Assembly: GCF_014076495.1 (NCBI RefSeq)
Contig: NZ_CP043575.1
Span: 434,001 to 498,000, forward strand
DNA: 64,000 nucleotides
DNA from: Comamonas koreensis
Lineage (GTDB): Bacteria; Pseudomonadota; Gammaproteobacteria; Burkholderiales; Burkholderiaceae_C
Reading direction: 5' to 3'
Shown here: positions 11,514 through 21,561 of the stretch, in pieces
How positions within the stretch are numbered: position 1 is the first letter of the stretch
Layout: each line of letters opens with the position of its first letter
Program-made: the position numbers and the translations under genes
The notes under the pieces: generated by a model
Told to the model about the DNA's origin: nothing
Databases searched by the model: none
The model's input: only the letters and a program-made list of their open reading frames with translations

Positions 11514-12281
11514 ATGCTTTTGATCGACCTGCACCACGCCCACGCTGCCTTGCAAGACAACGGCGTCGCCACCTTGACGATTCGCCATGCCGGCAGCCTC
11601 AATATCCTGTCGTCGCCGGTGCTCGAAGCGCTGGCCCAGGCATTCGATACGCTGGCGCAGGACACGCGCATCCGCGTGCTGGTGCTGCGCGGCAGCGGTG
11701 ACAAGGCCTTTGTCGCGGGCGCTGATATCAAGGAAATGCGGGCGCTGACGCCGGACAATGCCGCTGCCTTCATCACCCGGCTGCGCCGCGTCTGCGAAGG
11801 CGCGCGCCAGTTCCCCACGCCGGTGATTGCCCGCCTGCCGGGCTGGACGCTGGGCGGCGGGCTGGAGCTGGCCTGCGCCTGCGATATCCGCATTGCCAGC
11901 AACCGGGTGCAGTGCGGCATGCCCGAGGTCCAGGTCGGCATCCCCTCGGTGATCCATGCCGCCATGCTGCCCCGGCTGATTGGCGGGGCGCGCACGCAGT
12001 GGCTGCTGCTGACCGGCGACAACATTGACGCCGCACAGGCGCTGCAATGGGGCCTGCTCGACCAGGTGGTGCCGCCCCAGCGGCTCGACGACGAGGTAGA
12101 GCGCCTGGCCAACCAGCTGGCCGGCTACGGCCCGCAGGCACTGCGCCAGCAAAAACGCATGCTGCGCGCTTGGGAGCGGCAATCTGTCGACCAGGCCATC
12201 GAAGACAGCGTGCTGGAATTTGCCAACGCCTTCAAGACCGGTGAGCCCCAGGCCTATATGGCCCGCTTTGGCCAGCACTGA
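11514..12281 (+). CDS. Enoyl-CoA hydratase/isomerase family protein
   Basis: A 255-residue crotonase-fold protein. The oxyanion-hole segment AGADIKEM lies near residue 70 and the active-site region GGGLELACACD near residue 118. Both glutamates used by classical enoyl-CoA hydratases appear present, in GGGLEL and in MPEVQVG about 20 residues on. The substrate-pocket stretch PSVIHAAMLPRLIG differs from short-chain hydratases and occurs in less characterised subgroups. The likely reaction is hydration or isomerisation of an enoyl-CoA. It stands alone, divergent from the YjfI/PspA module, so the pathway is unclear. A hairpin with arms GCCTGCC/GGCAGGC (12294-12319) follows the stop but lacks a T-run. 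Confidence 0.85.
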   Translation: MLLIDLHHAHAALQDNGVATLTIRHAGSLNILSSPVLEALAQAFDTLAQDTRIRVLVLRGSGDKAFVAGADIKEMRALTPDNAAAFITRLRRVCEGARQFPTPVIARLPGWTLGGGLELACACDIRIASNRVQCGMPEVQVGIPSVIHAAMLPRLIGGARTQWLLLTGDNIDAAQALQWGLLDQVVPPQRLDDEVERLANQLAGYGPQALRQQKRMLRAWERQSVDQAIEDSVLEFANAFKTGEPQAYMARFGQH

Positions 12282-12814
12282 TACAGGGGCAAGCCTGCCT
12301 GCGCTTGAGCGGGCAGGCCTATCTGCGCTTTGCTAGCAGGCGGCATCACCTGCTGATGCCGGGGCTCCGCAATCGGGGCCCGTTTCTCTCCCTACCGCCC
12401 CCTTGATCGCCCATGCCGTCTGCGCAGGGGTGATGTCCCATCGCGCCCGGATGGCACACGCCCAGCGCTGGCCCTCTGTTGCAGGGCGCAGTGTGGTTGC
12501 CAAGCCCCAGCCATCCCTTGTCATTTTTCTATGGGATTGGCAACACACCCCCAAGAAAAAGCATCATCCAGAAACAGGAAATTTTGATGCGCCGCAGCAA
12601 TATTTACATTTGATCGTTAAAAATCGCTTCCAAATCAAGCATCAACTTGTAACCTCACCAACGACGTTTGCAGGCAGATCGTTGATAGTATTTCCCTTTG
12701 TCGTTAATAAATACTTACTTTTTACTAGGATACTTGTTGAAACACTATTCATGCATTTGTGGCGATTGATATAATCGAATCACAAGTCGTGAGAATTTTT
12801 TTCTATCAATCACC
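12282..12814. other. 533-bp intergenic region with AT-rich promoter segment
   Basis: There is no convincing gene; a 123-codon frame here has atypical composition and no recognisable motif. The left half is GC-rich like the genome. From about 12530 the sequence becomes strongly AT-rich (for example 12700-12760), unlike any other stretch in the window. It contains repeated short motifs GATCGTTAA (12612), GATCGTTGA (12678) and GTCGTTAAT (12700), plus a dyad over a perfect TATAAT at 12757-12785. It is most simply the control region for the downstream polysaccharide cluster, perhaps bound by nucleoid proteins that recognise AT-rich DNA. Confidence 0.6.
12757..12785 (+). promoter_or_regulatory. -10 box TATAAT inside an imperfect dyad, upstream of the polysaccharide cluster
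   Basis: TATAAT occurs at 12770-12775. It is embedded in a symmetric arrangement: TTGTG (12757-12761), CGATT (12763-12767), AATCG (12773-12777) and CACAA (12781-12785). The first ATG of the cluster is about 40 bp further on. The -35 is poor (about 12747-12752), as for an activated or repressed promoter. The factor binding the dyad is unknown. Confidence 0.5.
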
Positions 12815-14263
12815 ATGCCCAAGCGCTCCGCCCCCTCATTTCAGGCCCCTGCCCTCTGCGCAGCGCTCCTGGGCCTTTTGCCTGTATGGGCCCATGCCCA
12901 GCCACTGCGGCCTTACCAAGCCAGCTGGGCCACCTGGGGCCTGGGTCTGTGCCTGGCCGCGCTGATGGTGGTGGTGGCGCTGGAGGCGCTCTACACCTTC
13001 CGCCACTACGCCTTCACGCTCAACCGCCTGTTCGCACGCCAGCGCCCGCTGTATGCCGGCATCGAGCAGGCGCACTGGCCGCACATCACCGTCTTTATTG
13101 CAGCGCACAACGAAGAGGCCGTGATCTCGGGCTGCATCGAGGCGCTCCTGGATGTGGACTATCCGCGCGATCGCCTGACGATCATGCCGGTCAATGACCG
13201 CTCGACCGATGGCACGCGCCAGATCATCGACAGCTATGCCGACCGCCACCCTGGCCGCCTGCAGCTGTTCCACCGCCAGGAAGGCCCTCCAGGCAAGGCC
13301 GCGGCGCTCGCCGATGCCACCGCCATCGTCCAGGCCCGGGGCGAGTCCGAGCTGATCGTGGTGTTCGATGCCGACTACCTGCCGGGCAAGAAGATCATCA
13401 AGCAGCTGGTCGCCCCCTTCCTCGACCCCGAGGTGGGCGCCGTCATGGGCCGCGTGGTGCCCCAGAACGCCGGCGTGAACCTGCTCACCCGCCTGCTCGA
13501 TCTGGAGCGCTCCGGTGGCTACCAGGTCGACCAGCAGGCCCGTTTCAACATGGGTGCGGTGGCGCAGTACGGCGGCACCGTGGGCGGCATTCGCCTGAGC
13601 GCGCTGCAGGATGTGGGCGGCTGGACCCCCGAGGTGCTGGCCGAAGACACCGACCTGACCTACCGCCTGCTGCTCAAGGGCTGGCAAACCGCCTACCTGG
13701 GCTACGCCGAATGCTATGAGGAAGTGCCTGAGAGCTGGGCTGTGCGTTTTCGCCAGATCAGCCGCTGGGCCAAGGGCCACAACCAGGTGATGACCAAGCT
13801 GGGCACCGAGATGCTGACCCGCAAGGGCCTGCGCTGGATGGAGCGTGTCGACGGCGTGGCGCTCCTGGGCGTGTTCCTGATGTCGCCCATCTTGCTGGTG
13901 GGCTGGCTGCTGGCCCTGGTGCTGACGGTCACCGGCTACGGCATCGGTGCCAATGTGAACATTGCCTTGCTGATGCTGCTGATCGCCACCGGTTTTGCCT
14001 GCGTGGGCAACTTCGCCGCCTTCTTCGAAGTGGCCGCTGCCGTGCACCTTGACGGCCACCAGCGCCGCCTGCGCCTCTTGCCGCTGCTGCTGACGGGCTT
14101 TGTCGTCAGCATGGTGGCCGTCTCCAAGGCCACGATCGACGGGCTGCTGCTCGACAAGCTGTTCAAGCGCCAGTTCAAATGGGACAAGACCGTGCGCTAC
14201 CGCCAGGCGCCCGCCGCTGCCCCGGTCGTCTCGCCCGCAGCCCTGCCTGAAGCACGTGTATGA
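12815..14263 (+). CDS. Processive family-2 glycosyltransferase, membrane polysaccharide synthase
   Basis: A 482-residue membrane glycosyltransferase of the cellulose/hyaluronan/PNAG-synthase type. An N-terminal signal-like and membrane region (to about residue 62) precedes a cytoplasmic GT2 domain. The motifs are HNEE (about 98), DRSTDGT (128), DAD (185-187), EDTD (277-280) and QISRW (314-318), the D, DxD, ED and QxxRW set of processive synthases. Three or four membrane helices follow (about 345-440). The natural product would be a beta-linked polymer made at the inner membrane and passed outward. Its stop overlaps the next start by 4 bp (14260-14263), which implies translational coupling. 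The epimerase in the same operon makes UDP-N-acetylmannosamine a plausible donor; that is inference. Confidence 0.9.
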   Translation: MPKRSAPSFQAPALCAALLGLLPVWAHAQPLRPYQASWATWGLGLCLAALMVVVALEALYTFRHYAFTLNRLFARQRPLYAGIEQAHWPHITVFIAAHNEEAVISGCIEALLDVDYPRDRLTIMPVNDRSTDGTRQIIDSYADRHPGRLQLFHRQEGPPGKAAALADATAIVQARGESELIVVFDADYLPGKKIIKQLVAPFLDPEVGAVMGRVVPQNAGVNLLTRLLDLERSGGYQVDQQARFNMGAVAQYGGTVGGIRLSALQDVGGWTPEVLAEDTDLTYRLLLKGWQTAYLGYAECYEEVPESWAVRFRQISRWAKGHNQVMTKLGTEMLTRKGLRWMERVDGVALLGVFLMSPILLVGWLLALVLTVTGYGIGANVNIALLMLLIATGFACVGNFAAFFEVAAAVHLDGHQRRLRLLPLLLTGFVVSMVAVSKATIDGLLLDKLFKRQFKWDKTVRYRQAPAAAPVVSPAALPEARV

Positions 14264-15213
14264 GCGCCCCCGTCCATCCCCTGCTGTTTGGCAGCATGTG
14301 GCTGACCGTGACCGCCCTGGTCTTCCTCTTGCCGCTGCTGCCGGCGCTGCGCGAGCTGTATTCGCGCAGCGATGCCGATGCACTGGCCATCGATCCGCTG
14401 GACAACGGCCGCACGGACTACACGGCCCAGCGCATGGCCGAGCAACTCGATCTGCTCGAAGCCATGCCGCGCGTGGCCCAGTGGCAGCACGATGACCAGG
14501 GGCGCCTGATGGTGCCCCGTGGCCAATCGCGCCTGATGGCCCGGACCGAGGTGCCGGTCGTGATCGGCTTCAGGTCCCAGCTGCGCACCCTTGTCTCCAG
14601 CGACATCGTCGAGCTGCAGGCCAACAGCGTGGTGCAACGCGTGCTGCATGCCAAGAGCATCCACTGCCTGGGCCCGGCCCAGCTGGCCCGCCTGACCAGC
14701 GCCGAGCGCCATATCGTGCTCTCGCCCGGTGCGCGCTTTTTGCGCCTCTCGGCCGCCTGCATCTTTACCTGGCCCCTCAAGCGCTCGCTGCAGTTCCCGC
14801 TGCCCGAGCTGGGCACCGGCATGCCGCTGACGACGCTGCAGCGGCGCCATGAAGGCGACCTGCGCATTCCCGCCGGCACCATTGTGCGCGGTGGCCTGGT
14901 GGTCACCGGCAACCTGCTGATGGAAGAGATGTCCGTGGTCGTGGGCCATATCAAGGTGCATGGCAATGCCGTGCTGGCCCAGAGCGCCTGTGTGCAGGGC
15001 GCGGTGTTCGTGCAGGGCGACCTGCAGACCAAGGGCAACAACTATGTCGAAGGGCCACTGTGCGCCGGCAAGCGCCTGCAGCTGGGCCCCGACAGCCAGG
15101 TGGGCGACAAGGAGTGCCCCAGCAGTGTCTCGGCCTGGACCATTGCCTTACACGCCAGTGTCCGCGTCTATGGCAGTATGGCTGCTGTACGTTCCGGACA
15201 GGTGGTGCTATGA
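14260..15213 (+). CDS. Membrane-anchored beta-helix protein, bactofilin-like C-terminus
   Basis: 317 residues. One hydrophobic segment (about 11-30) anchors the protein, then a soluble domain of unclear fold extends to about residue 195. From about 205 to 290 there are short regularly spaced strands rich in Gly, Val and Ile (GDLRIPAGTIVRGGLVVTG and similar). These look like a right-handed beta-helix or bactofilin-type solenoid. I do not recognise a named family. It is coupled by 4-bp overlaps to both the synthase before it and the secreted protein after it. It may therefore form a scaffold for the synthase complex at the membrane. A catalytic role cannot be excluded. Confidence 0.7.
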   Translation: MSAPVHPLLFGSMWLTVTALVFLLPLLPALRELYSRSDADALAIDPLDNGRTDYTAQRMAEQLDLLEAMPRVAQWQHDDQGRLMVPRGQSRLMARTEVPVVIGFRSQLRTLVSSDIVELQANSVVQRVLHAKSIHCLGPAQLARLTSAERHIVLSPGARFLRLSAACIFTWPLKRSLQFPLPELGTGMPLTTLQRRHEGDLRIPAGTIVRGGLVVTGNLLMEEMSVVVGHIKVHGNAVLAQSACVQGAVFVQGDLQTKGNNYVEGPLCAGKRLQLGPDSQVGDKECPSSVSAWTIALHASVRVYGSMAAVRSGQVVL

Positions 15214-16253
15214 AAACACGCAATCTCTGGATCGCCTCGGCAGCCATGGCCTGGCAGCTGGCAGGCGCAGCGCAGCCGGACGAGCCCCCGGCGCTGGCCG
15301 CCTTTGCCACCGGCGATGGCGCCTACTACACCACCTTGGGCGGCCAGGTCGTAGACCCTTACTTCGTCAACAAGGGCTTCACGATCGCGCTGCAGGCGGG
15401 TGTGCCGCTACGCGCCGAGCTGCAGCAGTGGCTGGCCTGGCTGCTGCCGCGCCAGCGCCAGGATGGCGGCTTTGACCGCTTTTGCCCCACCGCAGACACT
15501 GCCTGGCGCAGCTGCATGGGCGCCGATGCCGACGACTCCATGGCCGCCACCACGATCGAGATGCTGCACTTGGCGCGGCAGAAGCAATGGCTCACTCCTG
15601 GTCAGCAGGCCGCTGCCCAGCAGGCCATTGCGCGCAGCCAACAGCTGCTCGCGCGCCTGCGCAACCCCAGCAACCAGCTCTACAAAGCCTTGCTGGACAC
15701 CGAGCTGTACTACCTGATGGACAACATCGAGGTCTACGAAGCGCTGCGCGCGGCCGAAGGGGCGCAGGCGGGCCCCGCCTCCAAGCAGCTGGCAGCGGCC
15801 ATCAACCGGCGTTTTCGCAGTGGCAGCGACTGGAAACCGGCCTTGCCCGAATACGACCGTCCGCGCTTTTATCCCCATACCCTGGCCAGCGCCTACCTGT
15901 GGCAGACCGGGGTGATTTCCCGCGCCGAATCGGACCGCGCCACCGCCCAGTGGCTGGCCCAGCATGGCAGCGCCTGGCTCTCGCGCAGCGAAGACCACTA
16001 TGCATGGGGCCTGGTTGCATGGAAAATGCGTCAGACCGCACCGATCCAGGCCGCCTGCTGGCGTGCATCGCTACGGCCCTTCCAGCCTGCGGTAGGCTGG
16101 ACCGTGTTGGATGCGATGATCGACCACGCGCTGGCGCACACGGGTATCAGCACCCAGTGCCCTTTTGCAATGGCCACGGCGCCCGCGCCGGTGCCCGCGC
16201 CGGTGCCCGCGCCGGTGCCCGCGCCCACAACCACCCCGGCTGCCAACCCTTGA
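15210..16253 (+). CDS. Secreted helical protein of the polysaccharide cluster, Pro-Ala repeat tail
   Basis: 347 residues starting at the ATG at 15210, which overlaps the previous stop by 4 bp. A signal peptide (residues 1-21, ending AGAAQ) is followed by a helix-rich domain with repeated Trp/Tyr/Asp motifs (RQDGGFDRFC, DADDSMAATTIEML, YDRPRFYPHTLA). The repeated helical hairpins recall alpha/alpha-barrel glycoside hydrolases or lyases, but no family was identified. Such an enzyme would trim the polymer in the periplasm, as BcsZ does for cellulose. The last 20 residues are a PAPV repeat encoded by a 12-bp tandem repeat, probably a flexible linker. Function is open. Confidence 0.7.
   Translation: MKTRNLWIASAAMAWQLAGAAQPDEPPALAAFATGDGAYYTTLGGQVVDPYFVNKGFTIALQAGVPLRAELQQWLAWLLPRQRQDGGFDRFCPTADTAWRSCMGADADDSMAATTIEMLHLARQKQWLTPGQQAAAQQAIARSQQLLARLRNPSNQLYKALLDTELYYLMDNIEVYEALRAAEGAQAGPASKQLAAAINRRFRSGSDWKPALPEYDRPRFYPHTLASAYLWQTGVISRAESDRATAQWLAQHGSAWLSRSEDHYAWGLVAWKMRQTAPIQAACWRASLRPFQPAVGWTVLDAMIDHALAHTGISTQCPFAMATAPAPVPAPVPAPVPAPTTTPAANP
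16179..16226 (+). repeat. 12-bp tandem repeat encoding a Pro-Ala-Pro-Val tail
   Basis: Four units of the type GTGCCCGCGCCG run from 16179 to 16226; the first and last units are slightly changed. They lie in frame in the 3' end of the preceding gene and encode the PAPV repeats. Unit gain or loss by slippage would keep the frame and only change linker length. Confidence 0.85.
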
Positions 16254-16263
16254 GGCTGACACC

Positions 16264-18153
16264 ATGAACAAGCTCTTGCGCTGGAAAAAATGGCTGGCCG
16301 CCACCGCAGTGGTGCTGTGCCTGCTCGCCGTCATTGGCTGGCACCAGTCACGCAGCCTGCAGGCCAGCCAGCACTACGCCACCATCAGCTTGCTGATCCC
16401 CGATGGCATGCCCGCCCATGCGCCCCAGGTGCAGATCTGGAGCGAGGCAGCGCGCGAGCGCGGCCTGCTGCTCAAGCCGCTGGCGATCAGCGAATGGATG
16501 CGTGGCATCCACTATGGCGCCCCCGCTGCGCAGCAGGCGGTGATCCTGCCCGATACCTTCCACCGCAATATCTCTGATGCGGCAGTGCAGACCCTGATCG
16601 ACGTGGTGCAGGCTGGCGGCCAGGCCATGGTGGTGCAGGACGGCGGCATGCTCGACGAGCGCGGCTACTACAGCAAGGGCACATCGCGCCTGTCGCAGAT
16701 GCTCGGCGTGCGCTATGGCGACTACGACACCTACAAGGACCAGCTGTCCGACTATGAAGAGATCCGGGGCGCGCCCACCACGATGGAGCTGCTGGGCATC
16801 CCGCCCGGGCGCTACCTCGATGCCAAGGCCGCTGCCAAGCTCACTGCGATCGACCCCGAGGAGCTGGCGGTCGATCAACCTGGCTTTCCGAGCTTCATTG
16901 CCGGCTACACCAAGGATTCGCAGCGCTTTACCGTGCTCAAGACCGACCGCCCCCAGGGCGCACGCATCCTGCTGCAATCGAGCAATGGCGATGTGGTGGC
17001 CAGCGTCAACCGCTGGGGCAAGGGCCAGGCGATGTTCATCAACCTGCCGCTGACCTATTTGCTGCAGCGCACCGACGGCATTTTCCTGCACGGTTTTCTG
17101 GCCTACTTTGCCCAGCAGCTGGTGCAGCAGCCGCAACTGCTGGCCTCACCGGACGGCATTGGCGCGCTGGTGCTGAACTGGCACAACGACGACGGCCGGG
17201 CCATCGGCTTTTTGCACGAGCTGCAGGAAGCGGGCATTTTTGACCACGGCCACCAGTCCTTGCACTTCACCGCCGGCCCCGATGTGAACCAGCCAGGCGA
17301 CGGCCTGGGCATGGACCTGGACTACAACGAAGACGCCCAAAAGATGATCCAGATGCTGCTCAGCCAGGGCCACAGCATCGGCAACCACGGCGGCTGGATC
17401 CACAACTATTTCGGCAACAACGCCTCCGACGACAACGCCGACGATTTCATGCCGTTTCTCGACCTGAACAATGCCTCGGTCACCAAGGCCAACCATGGCC
17501 TGCAGCCCAAGGAATACTCGGCCCCCAACGGCAATACGCCGCTGTGGACCTATGACTGGATGGCCGAGCACGGCGTGCAGTCCTTTTACACGGTGGCCAA
17601 CGTCGGCATGCCGCCCACACGGCTGTGGTTGGGCACGCGCCAGGTCCAGCAGTCCTGGGCCTTCCCCGTGCTGACCTACGGCCAGGTTGCGTCGGCCGAA
17701 GAGGCCTCGTTCCAGAAGATACCGGTTGCCGAGTTCGGCCAGTGGCTGCAGCAGGTGGCGGGCTTTATCGAACATACCCGCAGCATCCGCCTGAGCTACT
17801 TTCACCCGATTGGCGCGGTGGAGTACCTGCCAGCGGTCAAGGCCTACATCGACAGCGTACAGGCCTGTGCGGACCGCAAGCAGTGCCAGTTCATCTCGAT
17901 GGGCGAGGCGGCCGACTTCCTCAGTCGGCGCAACCAGGTGCAGTGGTCCATCGCGGCCGAGGGCGACAACGACCTGCTCAGGGCCAGCCACCCGCAGTCC
18001 CTGGCCGCGATGGCCTGGACTGTGCCCAAGACAAAATATGCGGCCGTGCGTGTGCGCGCTGGCCAGGCCCAGGTGCAAGCCACCGATAGTGCCTGGCTGG
18101 TGCGCGTGCAGGACGGTCAAGAACTCAGCCTTGAAATGCGTCGCCAAAAATGA
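16264..18153 (+). CDS. GATase-like plus NodB-like polysaccharide deacetylase fusion
   Basis: 629 residues, starting at the ATG at 16264. A membrane anchor (about residues 9-26) precedes an N-terminal domain (about 38-275) that looks like a glutamine-amidotransferase-type Rossmann fold (VILPDTFH, AMVVQDGG). A C-terminal NodB-like carbohydrate esterase domain starts near residue 295. The deacetylase motifs are divergent: WHNDDG at 306-311 replaces the usual TFDDG. The metal-binding motif reads H375-GGWI-H380, with one more residue between the histidines than the canonical H-x3-H. It would act in the periplasm on the nascent polymer, as PgaB does on PNAG. The stop overlaps the epimerase start by 4 bp. 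Confidence 0.8.
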   Translation: MNKLLRWKKWLAATAVVLCLLAVIGWHQSRSLQASQHYATISLLIPDGMPAHAPQVQIWSEAARERGLLLKPLAISEWMRGIHYGAPAAQQAVILPDTFHRNISDAAVQTLIDVVQAGGQAMVVQDGGMLDERGYYSKGTSRLSQMLGVRYGDYDTYKDQLSDYEEIRGAPTTMELLGIPPGRYLDAKAAAKLTAIDPEELAVDQPGFPSFIAGYTKDSQRFTVLKTDRPQGARILLQSSNGDVVASVNRWGKGQAMFINLPLTYLLQRTDGIFLHGFLAYFAQQLVQQPQLLASPDGIGALVLNWHNDDGRAIGFLHELQEAGIFDHGHQSLHFTAGPDVNQPGDGLGMDLDYNEDAQKMIQMLLSQGHSIGNHGGWIHNYFGNNASDDNADDFMPFLDLNNASVTKANHGLQPKEYSAPNGNTPLWTYDWMAEHGVQSFYTVANVGMPPTRLWLGTRQVQQSWAFPVLTYGQVASAEEASFQKIPVAEFGQWLQQVAGFIEHTRSIRLSYFHPIGAVEYLPAVKAYIDSVQACADRKQCQFISMGEAADFLSRRNQVQWSIAAEGDNDLLRASHPQSLAAMAWTVPKTKYAAVRVRAGQAQVQATDSAWLVRVQDGQELSLEMRRQK

Positions 18154-19334
18154 GCTCCTCCACCCCTTCCTCCTCCTTGTCCGTCGCGGCCATCATGGGC
18201 ACCCGGCCCGAGATCATCAAAATGGCCCCGGTGGTGCTGGCGCTGCGCCAGCGCGGTATCACCACCCATGTGCTGCACACCGGCCAGCACGAAGAGATGG
18301 CCTGGCCGCTCTATGAATTTTTCGGCATCGCGCCCCAGGAGGTGATCCGCCTCAAGCGCGAGGTCGCCACCTTGCCGGCGCTGTCGAGCGAGCTGATGTC
18401 GGCCATCGGCAGCACCCTGGCCAGCCTCCAACCGGCCGTAGCGCTGGTGCATGGCGACACCAGCAGCGCGGCCATGGGCGCGCTCGCGGCCGCCTTCCTG
18501 CAGATCCCCGTCGGCCATGTCGAGGCCGGTCTGCGCTCGGGCCGCATCTCCGAGCCTTTCCCCGAAGAGATCAACCGCAGCCTGATCGGCCGCGTGAGCC
18601 AATGGCACTTTGCCCCCACCGGCCAGGCCCGCGAGAACCTGGAGAAGGAAAACGTGCCCGGCGAGATCGCGGTGGTCGGCAACACCGTCGTCGACGCCGT
18701 GCTGCTGGCCGCGCGCCATGTGCGCACGCAGCGCACTGCCGGCCAGCCGGTGGCCAACCCCGACTACCAGTGGTTCGTCGACAGCGGCCTGCGCCAGCTG
18801 GTGCTGGTAACGGCACACCGGCGCGAGAACTGGGGCGCGCCCATGGTGGAGATCGCCCATTCGGTGGCGCGCCTGCTCGAGCAGCACCCTGAGGCCGCCG
18901 TGGTCTGGCCGGTGCACCTGAACCCGCTGGTGCAGCAGGTGGTGCGCGGCGTGCATGGCGCCAGCTCCGCAGACGTGCAGCGCCGCTGGCGCCTCACGGC
19001 CCCGCTGGATTACGCGCCCATGGTGGAGATCATGGACGCCGCCCAGCTGCTGCTGACCGACTCGGGCGGTATCCAGGAAGAAGGCCTGTCACTGCACAAG
19101 CCCCTGCTGGTGATGCGCGATGTGACCGAGCGTCCCGAAGTCATCGCCTGCGGCGCCGGCCTGCTGGTGGGCACCGAGGCCGAGCGCATCCTCTCGGCCG
19201 CCAGCCATGTGCTGGCCACCGGCCAACTGCCCGGCCTGCCGCCCGCCTCTGTGGACAACCCCTTTGGCGATGGCAGCAGCGGCTTGCAGATCGCCGCCGC
19301 AATTGCCCGCCATCTGCAGCCCTCCTCCCTCTGA
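18150..19334 (+). CDS. wecB: UDP-N-acetylglucosamine 2-epimerase (non-hydrolysing)
   Basis: 394 residues, full length for WecB. Family signatures are present: MGTRPEIIK at the N-terminus (UDP binding), HGDTSS, GHVEAGLRSG, TAHRRENWG, and DSGGIQEE near the C-terminus, with VTERPEV following. The enzyme interconverts UDP-GlcNAc and UDP-ManNAc in the cytoplasm. The 4-bp overlap with the deacetylase gene ties it to the polysaccharide operon, where it would supply the ManNAc donor. No UDP-ManNAc dehydrogenase (wecC) is present in the window, so the sugar is probably used as ManNAc and not as the uronic acid. Confidence 0.95.
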   Translation: MSSSTPSSSLSVAAIMGTRPEIIKMAPVVLALRQRGITTHVLHTGQHEEMAWPLYEFFGIAPQEVIRLKREVATLPALSSELMSAIGSTLASLQPAVALVHGDTSSAAMGALAAAFLQIPVGHVEAGLRSGRISEPFPEEINRSLIGRVSQWHFAPTGQARENLEKENVPGEIAVVGNTVVDAVLLAARHVRTQRTAGQPVANPDYQWFVDSGLRQLVLVTAHRRENWGAPMVEIAHSVARLLEQHPEAAVVWPVHLNPLVQQVVRGVHGASSADVQRRWRLTAPLDYAPMVEIMDAAQLLLTDSGGIQEEGLSLHKPLLVMRDVTERPEVIACGAGLLVGTEAERILSAASHVLATGQLPGLPPASVDNPFGDGSSGLQIAAAIARHLQPSSL

Positions 19335-19354
19335 ACAACCTCTACAAGAACCCC

Positions 19355-20227
19355 ATGAACACCTTCTTCCTCCGCAGCTCCATGGCGCTGAGCGCCGCCG
19401 CCTTGCTGGCCCCTGCCATGGCCCAGACCACCGGTGCCGGCACCACAGCGCCCATCACCGAGCCCGCCGCCGCGCCTGCAGCACCGGCCGCAGACTTCGA
19501 GCCGGGCCAGCGCGGCCGGGTTGATATCGGCGCGGGCTTCTCCAGCCTGACCGGCGGCAACAGCAACTGGAATGACGAGTACGTGCGCGGCTATGTCGGC
19601 CTCAAGCCCGGCACCGTCCTGAACTGGGACCTGGCCAGCCAGCGCCACTTCGACCAGCGCGGCACCGTGGGCGCGCTGTCGCTGACACACACCTTGTCGC
19701 CCTGGTGGTACATGTCGGTGGGTGCCAGCTCCGGCTCGGCCGACTTCCAGAACAAGTACCGCGGTGACATCGCCATCTACCGCAAGTGGACCGAGAGCCA
19801 GCAGTGGGTGACGGGCCTGTCGCTGATGAAATCGGCCAGCCGCGACGGCATCCACCGCGACACCGGCATCACCGCCTCGGTCGCCTACTACTCGACCAAC
19901 GACTGGGTCGGCGAAGGCGGTGTGGTCTACAACAAGTCCAACCCCGGCTCGGTCGAAGGCTACCGGGGCTTTGCCGCGCTGACCATGGGCCGCGAAAAGC
20001 AGCACTACTTCACCGCCCGCATCGACCATGGCAAGGAAGGCTACCTACCCACCGGCGCCATCGCCAACGGCGTGGGCAACCAGGTCGGCTTCCAATCGAC
20101 CGAGCTGAGCCTGCAATGGCGCCAGTGGCTGGGCAAGGACTGGGGCTACCTGGTGGGCGGCCAGTTCTACCGCAACCCCTACTACAACCGCAAGGGCCTG
20201 AGCGCTGCGGTGTTCTTCGACTTCTAA
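19355..20227 (+). CDS. YaiO-like outer-membrane beta-barrel protein
   Basis: 290 residues. A signal peptide (to about residue 23, AMAQ) and a Thr/Ala/Pro linker precede a run of alternating amphipathic strands from about residue 50. The protein ends in aromatic residues (AAVFFDF), the typical outer-membrane barrel end. The pattern matches the YaiO family, which in E. coli lies next to a glycosyltransferase (YaiP) and a deacetylase (YaiS). Here it likewise follows a synthase, a deacetylase and an epimerase, 20 bp after wecB. It is the best candidate for the outer-membrane exit channel of the polymer. No TPR domain of the PgaA kind is attached. Confidence 0.8.
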   Translation: MNTFFLRSSMALSAAALLAPAMAQTTGAGTTAPITEPAAAPAAPAADFEPGQRGRVDIGAGFSSLTGGNSNWNDEYVRGYVGLKPGTVLNWDLASQRHFDQRGTVGALSLTHTLSPWWYMSVGASSGSADFQNKYRGDIAIYRKWTESQQWVTGLSLMKSASRDGIHRDTGITASVAYYSTNDWVGEGGVVYNKSNPGSVEGYRGFAALTMGREKQHYFTARIDHGKEGYLPTGAIANGVGNQVGFQSTELSLQWRQWLGKDWGYLVGGQFYRNPYYNRKGLSAAVFFDF

Positions 20228-20236
20228 GGCCAGGCC

Positions 20237-21001
20237 ATGTCGTTGCGCATGACCCGCCAGCACCGGGGCCTCAGAAGCTACATCTGGACCTGGCAGCACA
20301 GCGCCCAGCTGCTGGTGCTGCTGCTGGCCTTCTGGCTGGTGCTGTGGTGGGCTGCGCCGCTGTTGATGCACCGCTGGGCCGATGTGCTGGCCTGGGCCTG
20401 GCCGCACCTGGGCCTGGGCAGCAGCGAGGGGGTCGAGGTGCAGACCACATCGCTGCTGGGCGTGCCCATCGAGGTGGTGCGCACACATTTCTATGTGCCG
20501 CCCCCCAGCCTCTGGCAATGGTGGGGTGGCGCGCTGCTGTCGCTGGGGCTGATGGCGCTGTCCTTTGTGCTCTCGCGCGAGCGCCTGCCGCTGATCTACG
20601 GGCTGCGCATCGTCGCGCTGTTGGGCATCGTGGGTCTGCTGTCCTACGAGTTCCTGCCCACGCTGGCCGTCAGCGACGTCAACCGCCTGCTGGCCGACAA
20701 CATCCTGGACATGGGCCTGGCCATGCTCTGGCTGCTGCCGGCCGTGCATGCGCTGGTGCTCTACATCTTCCCGATCCCGGTGCTGCACAAGGTCGCCGCC
20801 ACGATGACCGGCATGCTGATGCTGGTCGTCAGCATTCCGCTGCAGGCCGCCTCGCTCGCCTGGCTGGCCCAGCAGTTCAGCCTGCTGGTCACCTTGCCCT
20901 TGTACATGCTGTTCAGCTTTTTGCCCCAGATTGCGGCGCAGCTGGGCATCTACGGTCTGTTCATGAGCTTTGCGCCAGCGCCTGAGCGAGGGGGCGCCTA
21001 G
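20237..21001 (+). CDS. Polytopic inner-membrane protein of the polysaccharide cluster
   Basis: 254 residues, 9 bp after the barrel gene. Hydrophobic segments lie near residues 23-45, 93-112, 120-140, 155-178, 182-205 and 213-240, so five or six membrane helices are expected. A periplasmic loop lies at about 55-90. I do not recognise a family. Position as the last gene suggests an accessory role in synthesis, transport or modification of the polymer. Confidence 0.7.
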   Translation: MSLRMTRQHRGLRSYIWTWQHSAQLLVLLLAFWLVLWWAAPLLMHRWADVLAWAWPHLGLGSSEGVEVQTTSLLGVPIEVVRTHFYVPPPSLWQWWGGALLSLGLMALSFVLSRERLPLIYGLRIVALLGIVGLLSYEFLPTLAVSDVNRLLADNILDMGLAMLWLLPAVHALVLYIFPIPVLHKVAATMTGMLMLVVSIPLQAASLAWLAQQFSLLVTLPLYMLFSFLPQIAAQLGIYGLFMSFAPAPERGGA

Positions 21002-21091: not shown

Positions 21092-21276
21092 ACCCCCTCC
21101 TCCAGGATCCAAAAAGTTTCCCAAGCAACGATTAGCCGACGAGACCCTGTTGGCTTGCCACTGGGCGGACAATGCGCCGTGGCCCTGTCCGCAGGGCCCA
21201 GACCAACCGATCGACCCATGGCGCCCGGTGGCCGGCCACCGGGCAGGCCCGCTGGGGCGCCGCCAAGGAGAAAACA

Positions 21277-21561
21277 ATGCTGTATCTGGTTCGCATGGAT
21301 GTGAACATTCCCCATGACCTGCCCCAAGCGCAGGCCCAAGAGATCAAGGCCCGCGAGAAGGCCTATTCGCAAGATCTGCAGCGCGATGGCCGCTGGAAGC
21401 ACATCTGGCGCGTGGCGGGCGAGTATGCGAACTACAGCGTGTTCGATGTGGAATCGAACGACGAGCTCCACGGCCTGCTGCAGGCGCTGCCGCTGTTCCC
21501 CTACATGAAGATCTCGGTCACGCCGCTGGCCCAGCACCCCTCGGCCATCGCCCAGAACTGA
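21277..21561 (+). CDS. catC: Muconolactone delta-isomerase
   Basis: 94 residues, the normal length for CatC. Features include MLYLVRMDVNIP at the N-terminus, the basic helix with REKAYSQDLQRDGRW, and the C-terminal SVTPLAQHPS motif. The enzyme converts muconolactone to 3-oxoadipate enol-lactone in the catechol branch of the beta-ketoadipate pathway and forms a decamer in the cytoplasm. The start is fixed by AAGGAG six bases upstream of the ATG at 21277; the frame is open further upstream but unlikely to be coding. It is an orphan: catA, catB and pcaD are not in the window, and the nearest neighbour is a convergent hydratase gene. Confidence 0.95.
   Translation: MLYLVRMDVNIPHDLPQAQAQEIKAREKAYSQDLQRDGRWKHIWRVAGEYANYSVFDVESNDELHGLLQALPLFPYMKISVTPLAQHPSAIAQN

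Follow-up and report, generated by a model that had tools for sequence, protein, structure and literature searches.

A recurrent gene set with WecB beside a processive-type synthase in Comamonas koreensis and relatives: a probable ManNAc-containing exopolysaccharide system

Polymers of N-acetylmannosamine (ManNAc) made by a single synthase have been proposed as phage receptors in Escherichia coli and Acinetobacter and are described as uncharacterized in the papers on them cited here. The E. coli NGR system (NfrB-NfrA-YbcH) needs WecB and neither WecC nor WecA, and its proposed product is a ManNAc polymer (PMC8669469, PMC8669472); wecB adjoins nfrB wherever a genome holds no other wecB (PMC8669469). 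The PGR locus of Acinetobacter baumannii encodes a family 2 glycosyltransferase (GT2; PgrC), a WecB homolog (PgrF), a predicted porin (PgrG), and PgrE, which is like the C terminus of PgaB, and is proposed to make a ManNAc-containing polymer (PMC12507263). Listeria Pss (pssA-E with PssZ) yields a polymer of ManNAc and galactose at 2:1 (PMC7479077; see also PMC10172500). Here we describe seven genes, A to G, at positions 12,815 to 21,001 of a stretch of the Comamonas koreensis genome (the window: 64,000 nucleotides, positions 434,001 to 498,000 of the forward strand of NZ_CP043575.1). Judged from sequence, they probably form a synthase-dependent exopolysaccharide system whose polymer is at least partly ManNAc.

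Genes, families, and gene linkage can be read directly from the DNA, and at this level the best argument for a joint function is that linkage persists although the gene order changes. Searches with A found matches in 25 of 399 genomes of the family, 7 of 300 of the order, and 4 of 349 of the phylum, in overlapping samples and with the window's own genome counted in each. Searches with D found matches in 12 of 200 family genomes and, using a D profile, in 2 of 369 class genomes. The A matches scored at least 444.8 bits in the family and at least 481 bits in the order, with nothing else within the E-value limits of 1e-70 and 1e-60. Besides the window, this gave 38 loci: all loci with A, the class-level D locus that also has A (L055 in our numbering), four from named Comamonas, and three further ones from a Cupriavidus megaplasmid, an Escherichia fergusonii plasmid, and an E. 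coli chromosome. In 37 of the 38, a WecB gene sits no more than 4 kb from A, and 36 of those 37 have it on the same strand; the sole miss, L103, is a 3.8-kb contig. L145 came to light through its B-WecB region, and without it the linkage is 36 of 37. Because this linkage is so general, a ManNAc-containing polymer is the best inference.

The gene set is no chance grouping, as it turns up again in other genera and families, and its order is fluid: WecB may follow D, C, or B, may precede A, in some cases with D in between, or may be divergent, and the arrangements include A-B-C-D-E-F-G, A-B-D-E-F-G-C-D, A-B-C-E-F-G, A-B-C-E-F-G-D, E-A-B-C-F-G-D, E-D-A-B-C-F-G, B-E-F-G-acyltransferase-C-A, and others. 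The original prediction proposed a search for conserved co-occurrence of all seven families, and co-occurrence holds for a six-gene core (A, B, C, E, F, and G), all of which pass 1e-5 in 35 of the 38 loci (contig ends truncate L103 and L109). It does not extend to D, which is accessory: a D-type gene is found in 27 loci (in L099 on the opposite strand only). The named relatives to which D led are all Comamonas (4 loci). B is present in all 38 loci, and G exceeds 1e-5 in 36, the misses being L109, at its contig end, and L145, which has a gene of similar size in the place where G lies in E. fergusonii.

The gene set is distinct from NGR, PGR, and Pss, though it would operate like NGR and PGR, and a literature search of open-licence PMC papers found no named system with it, as had been anticipated. 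Like NGR, the locus combines a membrane GT2, an outer-membrane protein, and a WecB, the last joined here by genomic linkage. It differs in that the C-terminal cyclic di-GMP (MshEN) domain of NfrB is missing from A. Neither NF008411 nor the cyclic di-GMP motif, both of which E. coli NfrB has, is matched by A, nor has A any significant match to NfrB itself, and the E. coli nfr stretch gave no match at E 0.1 to any of the seven profiles. PGR, by its published description, shares a GT2, a WecB, and an outer-membrane protein with the locus; in that description, it further includes a homolog of BcsB and a protein like a diguanylate cyclase but lacking GGDEF, whereas none of the seven locus proteins matches BcsB. 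An A. baumannii match (H75) considered as PgrC proved PgaC-like.

E passes the WecB model TIGR00236 (358 bits; cut-off 210), and the motifs GTRPExIK, GDT, EAGLR, PEE, HRRE, and DSGGxQEE, which we take to be catalytic, are common to E. coli WecB and 13 aligned locus copies, the window's included. Of 30 genomes, 11 have no TIGR00236 match besides the locus WecB. Of 31 genomes, 5 have a WecC (UDP-ManNAc dehydrogenase) above its cut-off, in every case adjoining another WecB outside the locus, and no WecC above the family cut-off occurs in the window's genome; for these reasons, the ManNAc reading is favored. The one member of the UDPG/MGDP dehydrogenase superfamily matched in that genome fits the UDP-glucose dehydrogenase model best (478.6 bits; cut-off 700) and is above threshold for the general nucleotide-sugar dehydrogenase model; its score with the WecC model is 156.5 bits (cut-off 459). 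The argument from an only WecB is, by analogy, nearly identical to that used for NGR. In E. coli K-12, the strain examined for this, wecB lies in the enterobacterial common antigen operon, and the E. coli and E. fergusonii locus copies nonetheless carry their own wecB. In a WecB tree, five locus copies group with other WecBs, that of E. coli included (98/95), which suggests repeated recruitment of different WecB lineages; a single origin is not rejected by the approximately unbiased (AU) test (p = 0.169 with five long rows dropped), and recruitment is not claimed.

The synthase A belongs to GT2 (PF13641, 114 bits) and, from its motifs, is of the predicted processive type: VNDRST, FDAD, AEDTD, and QISRW correspond to D, DxD, ED, and QxxRW of processive GT2 enzymes, with flanking membrane segments. 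When an A profile was scored against 13 outside synthases, an Enterococcus faecalis synthase (176.6 bits) and Listeria PssC (174.2 bits; the gene is taken to be pssC from gene order and PMC10172500) ranked highest, followed by values of 145 bits and less, among them PgaC (119.9), BcsA (59.6), and YaiP (37), with no match to NfrB. Pss is thus close to the locus in pairwise score, PssC standing level with the E. faecalis relative, and its PssZ is an (alpha/alpha)6 glycosidase that matches the fold of C. It differs in being Gram-positive, in having a BcsB-type gene next to its GT2, in the absence of wecB from the fetched 12.8 kb of Listeria, and in the synthase tree, which does not join PssC with A. 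Pairwise scores favor PssC and the tree does not, and synthase phylogeny was therefore not used as proof of substrate.

PgaABCD also combines a GT2 synthase, a periplasmic deacetylase, and outer-membrane export, and A is 31% identical to PgaC over 257 residues. In one rival reading, A makes a polymer of N-acetylglucosamine (GlcNAc) only, with WecB as a supply or balance enzyme passing UDP-ManNAc to another glycan such as lipopolysaccharide (LPS). The PgaC/IcaA model TIGR03937 is indeed the best NCBIfam match of A, and UDP-ManNAc probably has another use in the window's genome, where a second, more canonical WecB (L051:8997-10094, outside the window; 495 bits) sits among genes that, judged by eye, resemble an LPS/O-antigen cluster and include an ABC transporter; from this sequence context, the LPS of this genome may contain ManNAc. 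Still, the match to the PgaC model is 124.4 bits against an equivalog cut-off of 422.3, and the locus has WecB, a YaiO barrel, B, C, and G with no gene for a large PgaA-like porin. WecB also stays with A despite rearrangement, genomes exist with no other WecB match, and no other glycosyltransferase is encoded among the seven genes, so we consider a GlcNAc-only product improbable. A bifunctional A making a mixed GlcNAc and ManNAc polymer, in the manner of single-enzyme heteropolymer synthases, is a rather unlikely but less remote case, and one that lies within, and shares its likelihood with, the ManNAc-containing polymer preferred here: WecB is reversible, so that both UDP-sugars are present. 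Listeria Pss likewise provides a ManNAc polymer that is mixed (with galactose; PMC7479077), whereas A shows no sequence sign of a second donor site.

B has a bactofilin match below threshold (PF04519, 21.2 bits; cut-off 27.9), and its orthologs are annotated as polymer-forming cytoskeletal proteins. No Pfam or NCBIfam family matches C, D, or G at E 0.01, and PDB sequence searches with D and C returned nothing useful. The predicted structure of C is an (alpha/alpha)6 barrel (pLDDT, the predicted confidence score, 90.9), a fold common to BcsZ, PssZ, GH63, and others; BcsZ/GH8 and GH126 are candidate families, with no Pfam family for C itself. Drimenyl diphosphate synthase and squalene-hopene cyclase stand high in its Foldseek list (TM 0.39-0.51), a likeness taken to reflect a shared toroid fold. 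D is predicted to fuse a glutamine amidotransferase (GATase)-like domain to a NodB-like deacetylase (pLDDT 94.6) and, with a beta domain in the same chain, to share the architecture of PelA. It differs from Pel in that nothing in D was matched to the N-terminal part of PelA (PelA aligns from residue 282) and no other pel gene was recognized among the seven. H307, D309, H375, H380, and H514 of D are invariant in 45 sequences, giving the motif HxD...HxxxxH, which differs from the usual NodB/CE4 motif DD...HxxxH. A likeness to human NDST1 (TM 0.30 or less) was not pressed.

D-type genes are also found beyond the core arrangement. More distant D paralogs follow the locus in many relatives (L030-L036, L094, L097, L098, and others), with three D-type genes in one locus (L032) and an internal stop in the D gene of L030; D-type genes at L038:9313-11487 and L056:9696-11906 stand in fetched stretches that lack the rest of the locus.

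F passes the YaiO model TIGR04390 (141.9 bits; cut-off 32), and the E. coli yaiO-yaiX-yaiP-yaiS genes are annotated as a YaiO barrel, an acyltransferase fragment, a glycosyltransferase, and a deacetylase, resembling the enterobacterial locus copies that also have an acyltransferase. They differ in that YaiP is distant from A and in that the profiles of B, C, D, E, and G match nothing there. To our knowledge, YaiO has no proven role, bactofilins are a family known from cell-shape roles, and we know of no characterized member of the locus, all of which leaves room for the genes to serve another envelope process (a modified glycolipid or glycoprotein, for instance) with the YaiO barrel not an exporter. 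We regard this as very improbable, as processive-type GT2 motifs, a glycosidase-like fold in C, a PelA-like D, and an outer-membrane barrel together fit the parts list of synthase-dependent export. Our analysis otherwise upholds the gene calls of the original prediction: seven codirectional genes, three 4-bp overlaps, a processive-type GT2, WecB, a YaiO-like barrel, a secreted helical enzyme-like C, and a GATase/NodB fusion, in a synthase-dependent system with WecB inside the operon and no WecC.

Several points weigh against a ManNAc-containing export system. The donor of A cannot be read from its sequence or from the synthase tree, because A forms a single clade (100/99) and Pss falls with PgaC and others (92/89) rather than with A, and constraining A and Pss to one clade is worse (AU p = 0.064). 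The case for ManNAc in the polymer is a genomic one, and E is not the sole source of UDP-ManNAc in the window's genome because of the second WecB. The 38 loci are related rather than independent, and the WecB linkage was counted around A only. D is absent from 11 of the 38 loci (contig ends truncate two of the 11), the predicted folds of C and D fit the proposal but, as fold matches, show no function, the F profile has no match to E. coli K-12 YaiO at E 0.1, and Pfam and NCBIfam scans found no cyclic di-GMP module in the seven proteins.

For the ManNAc-containing polymer, we infer use of UDP-ManNAc by A and the following roles for its partners. WecB (E) would convert UDP-GlcNAc to UDP-ManNAc, and the inner-membrane GT2 (A) would polymerize ManNAc, alone or with GlcNAc, and extrude the chain. 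B may cluster or scaffold the synthase complex at the inner membrane, with G as a putative membrane partner of that complex. In the periplasm, D, where present, would strip some N-acetyl groups, C may trim or clear the chain as BcsZ or PssZ does, and F would take the chain across the outer membrane. A ManNAc polymer, perhaps partly deacetylated, had been envisaged from the window; its ManNAc content remains the best inference and, given NGR, PGR, and Listeria Pss, has precedents that the original prediction did not name, and deacetylation may hold for some lineages only, since D is accessory.

The coordinates of the genes are given in Table 1. ATGA overlaps of 4 bp join A/B at 14260, B/C at 15210, and D/E at 18150, and the remaining junctions are gaps of 9 to 20 bp. 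The seven genes read as one operon with its own start, because a terminator-like hairpin (12362-12381) closes the upstream enoyl-CoA hydratase gene and an AT-rich stretch precedes A; no sigma-70 consensus or sigma-70-like promoter was found upstream of A. In all four named Comamonas loci, the enoyl-CoA hydratase gene (11514-12281) lies upstream and a muconolactone isomerase-like gene (21208-21561) downstream; in Comamonas without the locus, relatives of the upstream gene are only 57-58% identical or missing. The source genome is 5.2 Mb in one contig.

Table 1. Features of the locus and its upstream region (window coordinates)
Feature	Positions	Strand	Basis
AT-rich intergenic stretch, likely promoter region	12530..12814	+	37% GC vs 66% GC in the window
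A: processive-type GT2 polysaccharide synthase, 482 aa	12815..14263	+	GT2 motifs; GT domain flanked by hydrophobic segments
B: bactofilin-like protein, 317 aa, one N-terminal membrane segment	14260..15213	+	PF04519 below cut-off
C: secreted (alpha/alpha)6-barrel protein, glycoside-hydrolase-like, 347 aa	15210..16253	+	Predicted structure
D: membrane-anchored GATase-like + NodB-type deacetylase, 629 aa, PelA-like architecture, accessory	16264..18153	+	Predicted structure
E: WecB, non-hydrolyzing UDP-GlcNAc 2-epimerase, 394 aa	18150..19334	+	TIGR00236, shared motifs
F: YaiO-family outer-membrane beta-barrel, 290 aa, proposed exporter	19355..20227	+	TIGR04390
G: polytopic inner-membrane protein, 254 aa, 5 strong hydrophobic segments	20237..21001	+	Hydrophobicity

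Reordered copies of the locus occur on a conjugative IncI1/B/O plasmid of E. fergusonii (L143:3581-10206) and on the chromosome of E. coli AH19B041 (L145:8669-15580); in both, A is found together with wecB and an acyltransferase gene, with no D. Megablast with the E. fergusonii plasmid stretch found it, over 15% of its length, in 2 of 5426 E. coli genomes. The short L109 contig may be mis-binned, because its A is nearly the same as that of L105 (branches of 0 and 0.003) and the two genomes are assigned to different families. L103 holds A, B, and C with a weak G-type match (68 bits) and no E or F. Outside the collected loci, Latilactobacillus sakei plasmid pKCA54 has adjoining genes for a GT2, a family 8 glycosyl hydrolase, and WecB (L152:2366-5765), a possible Gram-positive set for a ManNAc polymer, judging by gene content. 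Two further comparisons were set aside: the Leptothrix/Sphaerotilus sheath genes, for which C homologs occur in Sphaerotilus but lthB is listed as GT8, and Rubrivivax psc1, where a UDP-GlcNAc 2-epimerase and a PEP-CTERM deacetylase are encoded among wza/wzx/wzy genes, a different kind of cluster (PMC3684757).

More tentatively, and with less confidence than in the ManNAc content itself, these loci could represent a class of their own among ManNAc exopolysaccharide systems, apart from NGR, PGR, and Pss, with a small YaiO barrel as exporter, a bactofilin-like organizer, and a PelA-like enzyme that would give a partly de-N-acetylated, positively charged poly-mannosamine in many lineages: a system of several Burkholderiales families and an accessory locus in a few enterobacteria. 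The locus is compact, is present in environmental Comamonas, and in 11 of 30 genomes holds the only WecB match, which would make the ManNAc question directly testable. If the proposal is true, polysaccharide export would become a role that can be tested for YaiO and bactofilin-like proteins, and the polymer would gain a candidate deacetylase and a candidate glycosidase.

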